DNA of 64,000 bases from Terriglobia bacterium. GTDB lineage: Bacteria; Acidobacteriota; Terriglobia; Terriglobales; Acidobacteriaceae. The stretch is from NCBI GenBank assembly GCA_020072585.1, contig JAIQGL010000004.1, positions 310,001 through 374,000 of the forward strand. Direction: 5' to 3'. Positions 12,571-44,364 of the stretch are shown here, in pieces. The position numbers were made by a program, and so were the translations under genes. The notes under the pieces were generated by a model that was not told the origin of the DNA, did not search any database, and was given only the letters and a program-made list of their open reading frames with translations. How positions within the stretch are numbered: the stretch's first letter is position 1; the number at the start of each line of letters is the position of its first letter.

Positions 12571-13392
12571 TCAGTGTTTATGCTCCATCCCAGCCATGTC
12601 GCCGTGATCGTGGTGTTCTGAGCCGGGCTTGTCTTTGAGTTGGCGCTCCACGGACCATATCTCGTCCGGCGTCTTCTCCCAGGGATACATATGCACCATC
12701 CAGCCGAAAATGTGTGGCATAAACGTTCCACCGGCGGCGTCACAGGCTTCCTCCGTTGTGATGGAGCCATTCAGACCAAATTTTGCGTTCTTGCCCAGCG
12801 CTTCAATCTCCCGGCCCTTGGGCGGCTTGCACATGTTCACGTGCTGGTGCCACTGCGTCATGCTCAGGGGAATTCGTTCATTGAGTTGCTGCTCGCTGAA
12901 GCGTACCGGCGCAGTGTACATGGCGCCGATCAGCTTGTAATCGTCACCGTGTTTTTCATAAAGCAGTGAGGTAGGCTTGGTGGGGTCAAAGCGAAACGCT
13001 TCGCCGATGGCATATTGATAGTTAGTAAAGTGATACATCTTCTGCGGGACATTGGGCAGGAAAATCTTGAATCCGTCATCGAGCGCGACCTTATAGTCGC
13101 GATATCTTTCAATCGCGGGACGGGCCTGTTCCACAACCTCTTGCGCCTTAGCGGCGTCGCCCGGCTGCGCTTTCCGTAGATCGCTCATGTGCATGTGGGC
13201 GGCCATGTGCTCATGGTCTTCATGGTTATGCCCCCGGCCCATGGCTTCAGTGGTGGCATTTAACTCACCCTGGCCGCCAGCCGGCTGCTGCGCATGGTCG
13301 TGGCTATGCTCCTGGCTGAAAAGTCGCAGCCCCGTCACCATCAGACTGAACCCCAACAGACTGACCGCCGCCGCTGCAAGAAATTTCTTCAT
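12571..13392 (-). CDS. secreted histidine-rich protein of unknown function
   Basis: Starting at the ATG at 13392 gives 273 residues with a clear signal peptide (MKKFLAAAAVSLLGFSLMVTG). The mature N-terminus is very rich in His (HSHDHAQQ, then RGHNHEDHEHMAAHMHM), and the C-terminus repeats the theme (EHHDHGDMAGMEHKH), which suggests metal binding. The central 150 residues form a folded domain with YHFTNYQYAIGEAFRFDP, TQWHQHVNMC and PHIFGWMVHMYPWEK. I have seen similar unnamed proteins in Acidobacteria but know no function. It is divergent from the LTxxQ gene, with 122 bases between the two starts. Confidence 0.82.
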   Translation of the reverse strand: MKKFLAAAAVSLLGFSLMVTGLRLFSQEHSHDHAQQPAGGQGELNATTEAMGRGHNHEDHEHMAAHMHMSDLRKAQPGDAAKAQEVVEQARPAIERYRDYKVALDDGFKIFLPNVPQKMYHFTNYQYAIGEAFRFDPTKPTSLLYEKHGDDYKLIGAMYTAPVRFSEQQLNERIPLSMTQWHQHVNMCKPPKGREIEALGKNAKFGLNGSITTEEACDAAGGTFMPHIFGWMVHMYPWEKTPDEIWSVERQLKDKPGSEHHDHGDMAGMEHKH

Positions 13393-13514
13393 CGTGAATC
13401 CCCCACTCTCCCGACAAAAGTAGCAAACCCGAAAAGAAGCCAAAAGTTACCTTCGGGATGCAGAAAGGAACTTCTCTCTTCCCTGCGGGTTATTATCTGC
13501 CGAAGGGGAAAACC

Positions 13515-14075
13515 ATGCCACGATTCTTTCATCGCATTCTGTTTACAGCACTTACGGGCGCAATGCTCTTGCCGATGGCCGGCCAGGCGCAGCAAGCACC
13601 AGATGACAAAACAGGCCAGTCACAGACAGGCAGCCAAACTGACGGAAGGCAGCGCCGTGGCCGCCGCGGCGCAGGGATGCAGGGCCAACGCCAGCACATG
13701 GCCATGCTGGCCCAGAAGCTCAATCTCACTGACGCACAGAAAGAACAATTCCAGCAGATCGGCAGAGACATGCGGAAACAGGGAATGGCCATCCGGCAGG
13801 ATAGTTCCCTCACCGATGATCAGAAAAAAGAGAAGATGCAGTCCCTGCGCAAGCAGGCGCACCAGCAGATGTTCGGCGTTCTGACGCCGCAGCAAAAAGA
13901 CCAGCTTAAACAGCTGCGTGAACAGCACAAAAAAGACCAGGATGAAAAAAAATCGAGCGGCGATCAGGCTTCAACCAAAAAGAAAACAGGCAGCACGGCG
14001 GCGGACGATGACGATCCCTTTGCCGGCATGACCAGTGACGACGATGATGGCCCGGGCAACGGCGGCGGCTTTTAA
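13515..14075 (+). CDS. periplasmic LTxxQ-motif (Spy/CpxP/ZraP-like) protein with acidic tail
   Basis: The ATG at 13515, after an AAGGGGAAAACC ribosome site, gives 186 residues with a signal peptide (MPRFFHRILFTALTGAMLLP, cleaved near GQAQQ). Two LTxxQ motifs stand out: KLNLTDAQKEQFQQIG and VLTPQQKDQLKQLREQ. Long charged helices separate them, as in Spy, CpxP and ZraP, which are periplasmic chaperones or metal sensors. The tail is Asp-rich (AADDDDPFAGMTSDDDDG). It is divergent from the His-rich secreted protein, which supports a shared metal or envelope-stress role by inference. Confidence 0.82.
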   Translation: MPRFFHRILFTALTGAMLLPMAGQAQQAPDDKTGQSQTGSQTDGRQRRGRRGAGMQGQRQHMAMLAQKLNLTDAQKEQFQQIGRDMRKQGMAIRQDSSLTDDQKKEKMQSLRKQAHQQMFGVLTPQQKDQLKQLREQHKKDQDEKKSSGDQASTKKKTGSTAADDDDPFAGMTSDDDDGPGNGGGF

Positions 14076-39349: not shown

Positions 39350-40135
39350 TCAGGCGGCTGCCGGCTTAGTACGCTGGGCGCGATTCAGAAGAGATGCGCC
39401 GCCGATCAACAGCGCCATTACAACGATCCATCCGCCCAGGACCATACGCCAGAGCAGGCTTTCCTGCTCTTCTACCAGCCGCAGGGACCGTCCAGCAAGG
39501 ACGAATCCGGGCGTCTTGCTGTTGACGTGCCGGATGACGCTGGCAATGCGAACGCCAGGACGCGGCTGCCATGTGACGTTTTCACTGCCGTGGCTGCGAA
39601 CAAAGTCGAACACGCCGGAAGGCGGAGTGGGCACGCTCTGGTCAAGATATCCGGTGGCTGGGCCTGGTTTGCCCTGCTCGTCATAAAAGATCACGAATGG
39701 CTGCAAGCTGCGCTCAAGATCCACATAGCCCTGCGGAATCACGTTACCGGGAGCTTCACCGGCGATGATCTCTCCGGCGTACCAGTCCGCCATGTCAATC
39801 TGCGGCTGGTTGGCGCCGCGCCTGAGCATCTGCTGCATGGTAACCGCGGCCGCGCCGCCCAGCAGCGTAAGGACCAACGCAAGAGCCGCAGTGTGAAATA
39901 CAACAGGAGTTTTGAAAATCAGATCGCGCGTCATATTCAAGCGCTCCGTGAATGAAGATTGCAGAAGGTCCTTATAGACGCGAAACCAGAAATGCAGGGC
40001 AGGAATGCGGCGATCCTGGTAGGCATCGCGCAGTGTCTGCAACATCTGGTCGCGATATTCAGAACGCAGGCGCAGAGGATACATCACCAGTGTGGCGCGA
40101 TACAGCCAGAGCATCGGCCTGGGGGGCTTCTTCAC
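39350..40135 (-). CDS. bitopic membrane protein with permease-prefix domain, PadR-linked
   Basis: A 261-residue protein. The N-terminal cytoplasmic part (LYRATLVMYPLRLRSEYRDQ, MLQTLRDAYQD, FWFRVYKDLLQS) is the prefix domain found on acidobacterial MacB-like ABC permeases. Here it is fused not to a permease but to two transmembrane helices (about 80-100 and 235-255) that bracket an extracytoplasmic domain with FVIFYDEQGKPGPATGYLD. The shape is that of a sensor. Its start overlaps the upstream PadR stop by four bases, so regulator and sensor-like protein are made together. Confidence 0.78.
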   Translation of the reverse strand: MKKPPRPMLWLYRATLVMYPLRLRSEYRDQMLQTLRDAYQDRRIPALHFWFRVYKDLLQSSFTERLNMTRDLIFKTPVVFHTAALALVLTLLGGAAAVTMQQMLRRGANQPQIDMADWYAGEIIAGEAPGNVIPQGYVDLERSLQPFVIFYDEQGKPGPATGYLDQSVPTPPSGVFDFVRSHGSENVTWQPRPGVRIASVIRHVNSKTPGFVLAGRSLRLVEEQESLLWRMVLGGWIVVMALLIGGASLLNRAQRTKPAAA

Positions 40136-40485
40136 TGGCGGGCCCCTTCCAGCAAGGCCTTGCGCCGGACTGTATTCATCACGCGGGCAAGACGGGCCGC
40201 TTCCGCGCTGAAAACCTCACTGCCGAACTTTGTAATGCGGTAGTAGCGGCGGCGCTCATTGTCAGTGAAGCCGGTCTCTTCGACCAGGCCGCTGCGCATC
40301 ATGCGGTCAAGCGATCCATACAGCGTTCCCGGCCCCATGGTGACCCCGCCGCCTTCAGGCAACGCAGCTTCTTTCATGATGGCGTAACCATGTTTCTCCG
40401 AGCCGGCCAGCACCAGCAGAATGGAAAAGACCACCGGACTCAGAGGCAGCAAGCTGTTGGGGTCGGGATTATCTGCTTTGCCCAT
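40132..40485 (-). CDS. PadR family transcriptional regulator
   Basis: The ATG at 40485 (MGKADNPDPNSLLPLSPVVF) gives 117 residues. It shows the PadR winged helix: HGYAIMKEA, MGPGTLYGSLDRMMRSGLVE, RRRYYRITKFGSEVFSAE. A perfect ATATATC/GATATAT dyad lies directly upstream at 40494-40514 and overlaps its ribosome-binding region, so autorepression is likely. Coupled by a four-base overlap to the prefix-domain membrane protein. Confidence 0.92.
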   Translation of the reverse strand: MGKADNPDPNSLLPLSPVVFSILLVLAGSEKHGYAIMKEAALPEGGGVTMGPGTLYGSLDRMMRSGLVEETGFTDNERRRYYRITKFGSEVFSAEAARLARVMNTVRRKALLEGARQ

Positions 40486-40514: not shown

Positions 40515-40696
40515 CTAGTAAAGTAATAATTGCGCCAGGGCGCAAGTACAGCGATCAGGTAGAAGCGGGGTTTATGCACTGGCCGCGAATCATGCGAATG
40601 AGTCCTTTGAGAAAGAAGGCGGGAGTTTCGAACGAAGGCTTGACGGCCGAAGATTTCCATCATCGACCGCCAGATCCTTGAACAGATTCGCAAAGC

Positions 40697-40906
40697 TTAC
40701 CGGGATGCAGGTTTGGCTGCGGGGGGAAGTTCACTGACACAGAACCCCTTGTAGCAGAAACAGGTGCCGAAGCAGGTCACGGATGGACTGCATGTACCGT
40801 GGCAAACCCCCAGCGCCTTTGGAGATGTGCGCAGTTGTTGTGCTGAAATTACACTTGCTGATAAAACCGTCATAAAAGTGACCGCGAACAGAATCTTTTT
40901 CACCAT
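40697..40906 (-). CDS. small secreted cysteine-rich peptide with cystine-knot spacing
   Basis: A 69-residue protein with an excellent ribosome site: AAAGGAG nine bases before the ATG. The signal peptide is MVKKILFAVTFMTVLSASVI, cleaved near SA. The mature part holds exactly six cysteines, spaced C-x3-C-x5-C-x3-C-x1-C-x4-C, in a 22-residue core starting with CHGTC and ending with YKGFC. That spacing fits the inhibitor cystine-knot (knottin) pattern of plant cyclotides, squash inhibitors and albumin-1. A proline-rich tail (VSELPPAAKPASR) follows. No modification or export genes are adjacent. It lies about 300 bases from an IS1182-type transposase gene. I do not know a bacterial homologue, and the function is unknown. 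Confidence 0.78.
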   Translation of the reverse strand: MVKKILFAVTFMTVLSASVISAQQLRTSPKALGVCHGTCSPSVTCFGTCFCYKGFCVSELPPAAKPASR

Positions 40907-41121
40907 GTTGATTTGCTCCTTTCAGTGAACCCATAAGACTTGATCGATTCGCTAGCGAACTTGACTTCCACCGGCTCGCGTTTTGATCTCTGCATGTTCA
41001 GGCTTGTTAAGCTGCTGGATTCGCGGCGTCCCGCACATGCAATGACGAAAAACAAAATTTTAACAACACTCTTCGCGAGCTGGCGGGAATGTTCCTTGAA
41101 AAAAGAGAGAGACATTCGAGA

Positions 41122-42584
41122 CTGTTGAAAAACTCGGCTACGCAGTCGAGTTTTCTTGTTGGTGATGACCATCAAGTGTGCTACTCAGATGTTTAGGAGG
41201 AGCACACCGAATGATGGGTGAACAAGCGCGGACCGAGTCACTGTTCTACTACTTCCGCCTGGAGGAGCAGATTCCCGAAACTCACCTGCTGCGGCTGCTG
41301 GATCGCTATATCGATTTCAGCTTTGTGCGCGAGCGGTTGAGAGGCTTCTACAGTACGACCGGTCGCCCGTCGATTGATCCCGAGGTGCTGCTGCGCCTGT
41401 TGCTGGTCGGCTATCTGTACGGCATTACCAGCGAGCGGCGTCTGCTGGATGAAGTACGGATGCATCTAGCTTACCGATGGTTCACGCGCTTGGACCTCAA
41501 TGCCGAGATCCCCGACCACTCGACCTTCTCCAAGAATCGACATGGACGGTTTCGCCAATCCGGCGTGTTCCGAGAAGTGTTCGAGGAGATCGTGCGGCGC
41601 TGTGTCGAGGCCGGCCTAGTGGAAGGCGAGACTCTAGCCGTGGATGGAACCATGGTGGCAGCCGATGCCAGCCAGCACAGCCGGGTCCGGCGAGAGGAGT
41701 TGCAGAAGGCAGCGCAGGTCTCAAGGACGGTGCAACAGTATCTGGCCGAGTTGGAGCAAACGAATCCGGTCGCGGCTCCAGCGCTGGTTTCCACTACCGA
41801 TCCCGACGCACTTTTGGCAACCAAGGGTGGCGGATCAGTGCGGATGGCCTATTACGACAACTATCTCATCGACACCTCCAGTCGGGTGATTCTGGAAGTG
41901 GAAGCAACGCCCGCGCTCTTTCATCAGGAAACGGCAGCCGCGCGGAGGATGCTGGAGGGCATCGACAAGCTGGGTCTTCATTCCAAGAACCTCGCGGCCG
42001 ACAAGGCCTATGGAAGTGGAGAGTTTCTGGCTTGGGTGATGGCGCGGGGCGTGGAACCACACATTCCTGTCATTGATCGTCGCCATCAAACTGGTGGACG
42101 TTTCACCCACGACCAGTTTCGTTATGAACCTGCGGAGAATGCCTACTACTGTCCGGAAGGGAAAGCGCTGCGCTATCGCGGTCTAAAAATCAAGGCTCAA
42201 AGTTATTCGTATTGCTCCACCGAGGCGCAATGCGAAGGCTGTCCGCAGAAGAAGCGCTGCACATCAGGTGCCTACCGCGCGCTGTCGATCCACTGGGACG
42301 AAACAGCTCGGCAGGCCGTACGCGCTTTGGTGGGAACTCCAGCTTACCAGCGTTCACGGCGGGCCCGCTACAAGATCGAAGCACTCTTTGCCGAACTCAA
42401 GCAGCGGATGGGCCTGCGGCGGGTACGGCTGCGCCGATTGTGGAATGTTTCCGAACAGTTCCTTTTGGCCGCGACTGCCCAGAATCTGAAAAGGTTGGTG
42501 CGGTTCCTGGCGCAACGCAACCCTACGCCGGCATTAAGCGGCGCTTGAAGACATCAGAGAAAGCATGGCACATATTTGCTGAAC
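41122..42584 (+). mobile_element. IS1182-type insertion sequence (ends approximate)
   Basis: The transposase gene defines the element. The likely left end begins near 41122 with CTGTTGAAAAACTCGG, including an AAAACTCG/CGAGTTTT hairpin. I could not find a matching inverted copy at the right end, which must lie before the small membrane-protein gene at 42585. The right end may be diverged or lost, so both limits are estimates. Confidence 0.5.
41211..42548 (+). CDS. IS1182 family transposase
   Basis: The ATG at 41211 (MMGEQARTESLFYYFRLEEQ), eight bases after an AGGAGGAG, gives 445 residues, full length for the family. The N-terminal DUF772 domain is clear (STTGRPSIDPEVLLRLLLVG, YGITSERRLLDEV, IPDHSTFSKNR). 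The DDE core follows (AVDGTMVAADAS, NLAADKAYGSGEF). A zinc-ribbon-like stretch (YYCPEGKALRYRG, CEGCPQKKRC) and the C-terminal ALFAELKQRMGLRRVR block with the catalytic Glu complete it. The frame is intact, so the enzyme may be active. Confidence 0.94.
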   Translation: MMGEQARTESLFYYFRLEEQIPETHLLRLLDRYIDFSFVRERLRGFYSTTGRPSIDPEVLLRLLLVGYLYGITSERRLLDEVRMHLAYRWFTRLDLNAEIPDHSTFSKNRHGRFRQSGVFREVFEEIVRRCVEAGLVEGETLAVDGTMVAADASQHSRVRREELQKAAQVSRTVQQYLAELEQTNPVAAPALVSTTDPDALLATKGGGSVRMAYYDNYLIDTSSRVILEVEATPALFHQETAAARRMLEGIDKLGLHSKNLAADKAYGSGEFLAWVMARGVEPHIPVIDRRHQTGGRFTHDQFRYEPAENAYYCPEGKALRYRGLKIKAQSYSYCSTEAQCEGCPQKKRCTSGAYRALSIHWDETARQAVRALVGTPAYQRSRRARYKIEALFAELKQRMGLRRVRLRRLWNVSEQFLLAATAQNLKRLVRFLAQRNPTPALSGA

Positions 42585-43059: not shown

Positions 43060-43899
43060 CTAACGGTTTTCCACCGTCCGGCCGTTGAGTTCCTGAATGT
43101 CCCGGGCGTTGGGCAAGGGATAGCGTCTTGCAAACTCCTCGATCTCCGCGGGAGAGAATTTGATGGGAGTTTTCAACACGAAAAATGTAATGCCTTCCGT
43201 GCAGGGCGGCGTTGTGAGCGATCCTGGAAAACTGTAATAGCCGGCGTTTTGGTGGTCCGCGGGAAGCAGTCCATCGATTTCAATGGGAGTGCCTCCATCT
43301 GCCGCCGGCGGGGGAAAGCGCTCAAACAAAACCTTGAGCACTGCGGAGGTTTTTGCCGTGGGCTGGCCTTGCTCCACCAGAACGGAAATCACCACGGCAC
43401 ACTGGCCGGTAACGCAACCGGCTTTTTTATGCACCAGGTGAATCACCATGGGATAGCGGTGGTTATTCACTGCTTCTTCACTGGGACGATGGAAGTGAAA
43501 TTCTTCCAGATCATATTTTCCCAGGCCATAGATCTCAATCGAGGGCGGCCGCACCGGCGTATAGAGCTTCAGGTTGTTCGGGTTTTCCAGCGTGGTCTTC
43601 AGCGGTGTGGGCTGGTTATATCCCGTGAATCTGATAGCGGGAAGCGCGGGGTTCGGCTTGCCTTCAGGGATGTTGATGGGGGCCTGAAAATGCCGCTCCG
43701 CGGAATTGTTGCACACGCCACACCAGGTTGATTGTCCATTCGGCCCGTTATCGTAGGCATAAAGAGGATGTTTGTCGCATTCGGCAGCTGCTTTCGCGTT
43801 CATCGCTGGAGCTGTTGTTTGGGCGGATGCAGCAAGAGAAAGGGAGACAAGTAAGAACAGCCGTGAAAGCCGGCGGATTGCCGGGGGAACGAGATCCAT
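43060..43899 (-). CDS. alpha-class carbonic anhydrase, periplasmic
   Basis: The ATG at 43899 follows AGGAG and gives 279 residues with a signal peptide (DLVPPAIRRLSRLFLLVSLS, cleaved near ASA). Zinc-binding histidines are in LEEFHFHRPSEE (two) and MVIHLVHKKAG (third). The conserved LTTPPCTEGITFFVLKTPI closes the active site. The enzyme interconverts CO2 and bicarbonate in the periplasm. The N-terminal TWCGVCNNSAERHFQAPINI differs from common bacterial forms by a CxxC pair that could form a disulfide. Length is normal. Confidence 0.94.
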   Translation of the reverse strand: MDLVPPAIRRLSRLFLLVSLSLAASAQTTAPAMNAKAAAECDKHPLYAYDNGPNGQSTWCGVCNNSAERHFQAPINIPEGKPNPALPAIRFTGYNQPTPLKTTLENPNNLKLYTPVRPPSIEIYGLGKYDLEEFHFHRPSEEAVNNHRYPMVIHLVHKKAGCVTGQCAVVISVLVEQGQPTAKTSAVLKVLFERFPPPAADGGTPIEIDGLLPADHQNAGYYSFPGSLTTPPCTEGITFFVLKTPIKFSPAEIEEFARRYPLPNARDIQELNGRTVENR

Positions 43900-44364
43900 T
43901 AGTAACGCTCTCCTGTTGAGTCTCTGGTGAAGCTTCCGCTGGGTTCCAGCAGCAGAATAGTGATACCACAGAAGGAACCTGAAGCAACAGCCGTTTGATT
44001 TTGATCCATATCTAAGAATTCCAGCTCCTGGTCCCTGGCGCATCGGTGCCTTGACATCCCAGACAGAAAAGGCTCCATCATTATCAATGGCGCCTCTGAT
44101 TCAGGCGACCGTGGGTTTCAAGTCCGTGGAGTTCTCATTCGCTGACGTTCCGCTTGCAGTGCCGCCAGGCACAGACCCAGGAAAACAGTCACGACCACAA
44201 ACAGCACAGAAGCCACGCAGAAGCCGAGGGAGAGCTGTGGGGGCTGGAAGCCGGGCGGGTAAGACAGTGGAAAGAGGTGTGGAAACACGGCAGATCGTTA
44301 CCCTTTGGTGAATACATGACTTTAGTCACTGAATGGAAAACTGTCAATCCGAAAGTATGGGTAT
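43900..44364. other. intergenic region without a recognisable gene
   Basis: About 465 bases between carbonic anhydrase and the XRE gene. Frames exist on both strands but all have erratic composition and no ribosome site. Probably promoter and decayed sequence. Confidence 0.45.

Follow-up and report, generated by a model that had tools for sequence, protein, structure and literature searches.

The stretch of DNA considered here (the window) comprises 64,000 nucleotides from Terriglobia bacterium, a member of the Acidobacteriaceae in the phylum Acidobacteriota (GenBank assembly GCA_020072585.1, contig JAIQGL010000004.1, positions 310,001 to 374,000), and carries a short gene for a secreted, cysteine-rich peptide. 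The original prediction had placed an open reading frame (ORF) at positions 40697-40906 and left its strand unstated. The frame is present there on the minus strand, with a ribosome site, AAAGGAG, ahead of its ATG and, as had also been proposed, it encodes a signal peptide followed by six cysteines with loops of 3, 5, 3, 1 and 4 residues; the signal peptide is hydrophobic, 22 residues long and of the Sec type. The gene and its parts are laid out as follows.

40697..40906, minus strand: peptide gene, 69 codons plus TAA, with 25 relatives known
40841..40906, minus strand: Sec-type signal peptide of 22 amino acids (MVKKILFAVTFMTVLSASVISA), with a cleavage point predicted by aligning the family
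40700..40840, minus strand: predicted mature peptide of 47 amino acids, net charge about +4
40739..40804, minus strand: six-cysteine core C-x3-C-x5-C-x3-C-x1-C-x4-C, with an AlphaFold predicted local distance difference test (pLDDT) score of 75-81 in the core and knottin profile matches
40916..40922, minus strand: ribosome-binding site AAAGGAG, upstream of the ATG, with a comparable site in nearly every family member

The signal part, MVKKILFAVTFMTVLSASVISA, is followed by the mature part, QQLRTSPKALGVCHGTCSPSVTCFGTCFCYKGFCVSELPPAAKPASR, which ends in ...AAKPASR and has no Asn or Asp beyond the last cysteine. The window peptide has paralogues in its own genome (E 1e-9 to 4e-3) and relatives in congeneric species (E down to 1.5e-16 by sequence and down to 8e-32 by profile). 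When about 139 kb of neighbouring DNA was filtered for secreted peptides with the spacing of an inhibitor cystine knot (ICK), the filter was passed by family members only. The window ORF is a real gene, beyond chance, because it has paralogues, because synteny is preserved and because nonsynonymous divergence (dN) stays below synonymous divergence (dS); a chance ORF or an artefact is ruled out on these grounds.

The family to which the gene belongs has 26 members in four species, namely the window genome and three of the eight congeneric species in the collection (G004, G006 and G007). The window genome (74 contigs, 6.9 Mb) contains eight further members: contig C13 carries five in tandem, C62 two and C23 one. 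Seven members form one array in G004 and two lie elsewhere, G006 has four array copies and one elsewhere, and G007 has one array gene and two elsewhere; most members of the family stand in tandem arrays. A search of 398 genomes, with 14 candidates scored per genome, found the peptides in the four congeners only. A phage or plasmid origin was rejected: a scan of viral contigs showed no relative and the plasmid search gave a match at E 0.3 only.

The secreted layout is kept in all 26 members, whose signal peptides end in a common ...S[A/V/I][R/H/Q]QL-like motif with a Ser that is invariant in the alignment just ahead of [R/H/Q]QL. The six framework cysteines, in a spacing compatible with an ICK, are kept in 25 of the 26 members, the exception being one G006 copy in which Cys5 is replaced by Arg. 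The consensus framework is 3,5,3,1,10 with small variations, and the loop between Cys5 and Cys6 measures 9-12 residues in every relative with the full framework and four in the window copy alone. The proposal of a bacterial secreted knottin-like peptide is supported by this conservation; homologues that had lost the cysteines or their spacing, or a frame not conserved in relatives, had been named as evidence that would speak against it, and the relatives display the opposite. Further copies with broken frames are present and, together with the Cys5-to-Arg copy, they constitute a birth-and-death pattern. In each of 14 pairs of mature regions dN was lower than dS (0.06/0.17, 0.16/0.97 and 0.15/0.62 are examples, and dS is saturated for the window/G007 pair), which indicates that the proteins are constrained. 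The same simple pairwise counts gave no sign of positive selection. A second site of conserved synteny, flanked by glmM-like and other housekeeping genes, carries a distinct peptide subfamily (CGSxC...KPCxCF...GVCQPEGP; loci L070, L073, L075 and L076), one copy of which has eight cysteines. Between two array genes of G004 (contig C6, ~13290-13840, locus L068) there are short frames with double-glycine-type leaders (e.g. ...ARDITAEEADRITGGLQAGT...), which are possibly unrelated secreted peptides.

The main array is located, in each of the four species, on the same strand as, and 15-23 bp downstream of, the gene of a membrane-anchored CxxC oxidoreductase. The array genes are spaced by 28-57 bp, with the exception of one 607-bp gap in G004, and because of these short intergenic distances they look like one operon. 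The partner protein combines an N-terminal membrane anchor, a thioredoxin-like domain (PF00578, E 1e-6 to 3e-7) and a CxxC motif that is invariant across the four species, the same architecture as in ResA, TlpA and MauD, and it is TlpA/ResA-like by these features. The species that have this protein are exactly the four with the peptides; in the other five congeners a search at E 1e-20 did not find it. The original prediction had described the peptide as being without processing genes, which is correct for the relocated window copy but not for the family, whose array locus begins with a thiol-disulfide oxidoreductase gene.

ResA and MauD serve the maturation of cytochrome c and of methylamine dehydrogenase, respectively. 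The models nearest to the partner are ResA (3.5e-11), MauD (4e-9) and StoA, a resemblance that would fit peptides which are not knotted effectors but small redox or metal-handling proteins of the periplasm, serving a TlpA/MauD-like protein as substrates or partners. We regard this alternative as quite unlikely. The partner lies far below the NCBIfam cut-offs (43 bits against 170 for ResA and 36 bits against 189 for MauD), was rejected as an equivalog of either protein, and differs from both, and from TlpA, in having a cysteine-rich peptide as its genomic neighbour. In the peptides no His, Met or CxxC metal site is conserved, whereas an ICK-type framework with variable loops is, and five to seven divergent tandem paralogues would be unusual for a redox carrier. 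A secreted disulfide-containing peptide tied to a thiol-disulfide oxidoreductase, as in the array locus, is also seen in sublancin, a glycocin of Gram-positive bacteria that comes with the BdbB oxidoreductase, an ABC exporter and an immunity protein. The two systems differ in that no counterpart of this exporter or immunity protein was found at the peptide loci.

The association between oxidoreductase and peptide extends beyond the genus. Four weaker homologues of the partner, from another family of the order, each adjoin a secreted six-cysteine peptide; one of these peptides has loops of 3,5,3,1,9 and one is fused to or overlaps the oxidoreductase frame. A profile that was not selected for peptide linkage was then applied to 298 genomes of the order and yielded 13 new loci, of which 10 had a secreted six-cysteine ORF within 700 bp, and this is the least biased of the figures. 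With the earlier four and the class-level loci included, 25 of 43 loci (two places counted twice) have such a peptide, 13 of them with ICK-like spacing, and across the phylum a peptide, mostly of another cysteine framework, accompanies 14 of 27 homologue loci; both the class-level and the phylum-level profiles took in peptide-linked loci. Control redoxin loci in the same group of genomes had no such peptide in any of 30 cases. The comparison of 25/43 with 0/30 gives a Fisher p of 3e-8, which ignores phylogenetic non-independence and uses the strongest redoxin matches as controls. The pairing is recurrent across the phylum and apparently undescribed: no account of it turned up in open-access literature searched for TlpA/MauD together with small cysteine-rich peptides and for cysteine-rich peptides of acidobacteria.

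Within the genus every peptide has a positive net charge (+1 to +6, mean +3.2), while the cassette peptides of other genera mostly carry a slightly negative one; given this contrast, it is unlikely that all peptides of the class act by one membrane-disrupting mode. Several other cysteine-rich frameworks, for example vicinal CC types, stand next to the phylum-wide homologues (L175-L201). A second TlpA-like gene of G004 (contig C19, near 59.2 kb; L109/L138) has upstream of it a secreted peptide with about ten cysteines in a different framework. In the second family of the order (L086, L087 and L088) a large secreted protein, apparently of the acidobacterial VWFA type by its sequence, comes after the oxidoreductase-peptide pair.

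Knottins are of wide occurrence in eukaryotes, and Evasin-3 is one that has been proven crystallographically (PMC6643034). When a profile of the 26 mature sequences was compared with PDB sequences, the best match was Evasin-3 (E 0.0009 and 0.0011), and with the full-length family profile leginsulin and PA1b follow at weak E-values. A separate profile, made from the cassette peptides of other genera and families only, gave MCoCC-1 (E 0.0019), with leginsulin and a squash trypsin inhibitor as weak further matches. The two profiles were built from non-overlapping sets of sequences and align with each other at E 4.7e-7, mostly via the cysteines. A single-protein PDB search with the window peptide returned nothing useful. 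AlphaFold models display a core with pLDDT 75-85 and short beta strands, and no helix. The chains listed by Foldseek, none of them a significant match, include many knottins: cyclotides, squash inhibitors, Evasin-3, MCoCC-1 and ICK toxins of a similar kind. From these profiles and models, a knot topology of the family peptides, which would pair the cysteines 1-4, 2-5 and 3-6 with the third disulfide threading the ring, is likely.

The known peptides differ in how closely they resemble the family. MCoCC-1, a seed knottin of Momordica cochinchinensis (PDB 2knp), has the spacing 4,5,3,1,10, close to the family consensus, and besides heading the PDB matches of the cassette-peptide profile it is the top Foldseek match of an array member; however, it is a plant peptide, nothing points to shared descent, and the knot of the bacterial family is a predicted one. 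Class B evasins, the tick knottins to which Evasin-3 (PDB 6i31) belongs, have six cysteines in a similar C-x3-C...C-x1-C-x10-C layout. They are chemokine binders with no functional link to the family, and their published motif, C-x3-C-x6,10-C-x3,6-C-x1-C-x10,11-C (PMC8569228), needs x6-10 in loop 2 and fits one of the 26 members, which is not the window copy. Cyclotides and squash trypsin inhibitors, to which the window peptide had been likened, are also of the cystine-knot type with a one-residue loop 4, and kalata and MCTI-A are among the weak Foldseek matches of the window model. This likeness did not survive comparison with the relatives, since neither the cyclotide loops (3,4,4-7,1,4-5) nor the squash loops (6,5,3,1,5) fit any of the 26 members. 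The window peptide differs from cyclotides in loops 2 and 3 and from squash trypsin inhibitors in loop 1, and lacks the C-terminal Asn/Asp site for head-to-tail cyclisation. Judged from the sequences, its cyclotide likeness is incidental, because the short last loop is found in no other member.

Protease inhibition is a common role of knottins (PMC5171801) and ranks as the main functional rival: the peptides would be secreted or periplasmic inhibitors that block proteases of predators, of competitors or of the cell itself, in the manner of the carboxypeptidase and trypsin knottins. The best Pfam match of the window copy is indeed the potato carboxypeptidase inhibitor family (carboxypeptidase A inhibitor, PF02977; E 0.003-0.01). 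With 16.1-17.7 bits against a gathering cut-off of 25, matches in two of the 26 members, and a reactive-site loop that is not conserved among paralogues, such a role is unlikely. Bacterial defensins have been described in myxobacteria, actinobacteria and a single acidobacterial sequence of class IV, among others (PMC8819291, PMC11561630), and the cis-defensins actinomycesin and xanthusin-1 are, like the present peptides, secreted, provided with six cysteines and encoded in paralogous clusters. It is nevertheless extremely improbable that the family consists of such cysteine-stabilised alpha-beta defensins, which have another cysteine pattern and fold: the published pattern, CX(2,18)CX3CX(2,12)CX(4,17)CXC (PMC11561630), fits none of the 26 members and the predicted fold is devoid of the helix. 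AtDEF-like Pfam matches (E 7e-4) came from full-length sequences and were gone with mature sequences.

The window copy is surrounded by the following features.

40132..40485, minus strand: PadR-type regulator (PF03551, E 5e-13), a neighbour downstream of the peptide gene
40530..40545, minus strand: terminator-like hairpin with a T-run, located downstream of the peptide gene, a consensus match only (the region has 3 such matches where 0.8 would be expected)
41178..42548, plus strand: insertion-sequence transposase (DUF772/DDE), the divergent neighbour

The position beside an insertion sequence had been noted in the original prediction and is borne out by the transposase gene, on whose near side there is a hairpin at 41129-41154; an inverted-repeat search for the ends of the insertion sequence found none. 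Among the relatives, the lone array gene of G007 comes closest to the window copy (61% over the mature part). An SDR gene near the peptide is conserved in four congeners, and within ~1.5 kb of it the PadR gene, an adjoining membrane-protein gene and the peptide are absent in these species. Relocation, with loss of part of the last loop, is the best interpretation of the window copy. This copy could, within a functional family, be a decaying relic, transposed, loop-deleted and separated from its folding partner, and several observations agree with this: the segment is missing beside the orthologous SDR gene, an insertion sequence adjoins it, the last loop is shorter by five or more residues, decayed copies exist elsewhere in the family, and a search for a sigma-70-like promoter did not find one. 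On the other side, the ribosome site, the signal peptide and all six cysteines are intact, and the mature region compared with the G007 copy gives a proportion of nonsynonymous differences (pN) of 0.30 and of synonymous differences (pS) of 0.77, so that change has been constrained. Decay of the window copy seems somewhat unlikely. Further along the window, at 43060-44043 on the minus strand, lies the gene of an alpha (eukaryotic-type) carbonic anhydrase (PF00194, E 1e-32), which seems to have a signal peptide.

On balance, we consider it probable that the family peptides are exported, knottin-like effectors served by a disulfide-folding partner of their own, and that the window gene is a stray copy of this lineage-specific family. 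The peptides would be exported by Sec and lose their signal peptide in the periplasm, where three disulfides would be formed or shuffled with the aid of the array-linked TlpA/ResA-like oxidoreductase. The resulting mini-proteins, presumably very stable, would be released from the cell, and their variable loops may bind extracellular targets such as competing microbes, predators, or enzymes of either. Several observations weigh against this interpretation. PDB profile E-values near 0.001 depend largely on cysteine spacing, and whole-model pLDDT is only 67-70. Foldseek gave no significant match, and VIA-align gave none with Z of 2 or more. The oxidoreductase is not knottin-specific, because its more distant homologues adjoin other peptide frameworks, and both the window copy and the second-site copies stand apart from any oxidoreductase gene. 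Neither an immunity gene nor an exporter or a target came to light for the peptides. The broader proposal, in which a TlpA-like oxidoreductase and rapidly diversifying cysteine-rich peptides make up an undescribed system of the whole phylum Acidobacteriota, with knottin-fold peptides, here in venom-like tandem arrays, as one of its branches, falls just on the probable side.

Neither the phrase 'bacterial knottin' nor a description of bacterial knottins was found in the open-access literature. If true, a bacterial knottin family that comes with a putative folding enzyme of its own would mean that the fold has a prokaryotic and possibly independent origin, would offer a genetically tractable way into cystine-knot formation and would supply stable scaffolds for binding as well as folding partners. 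The finding also draws attention to secreted peptides of a so far unexplored class, in a bacterial phylum that is large and poorly cultured.
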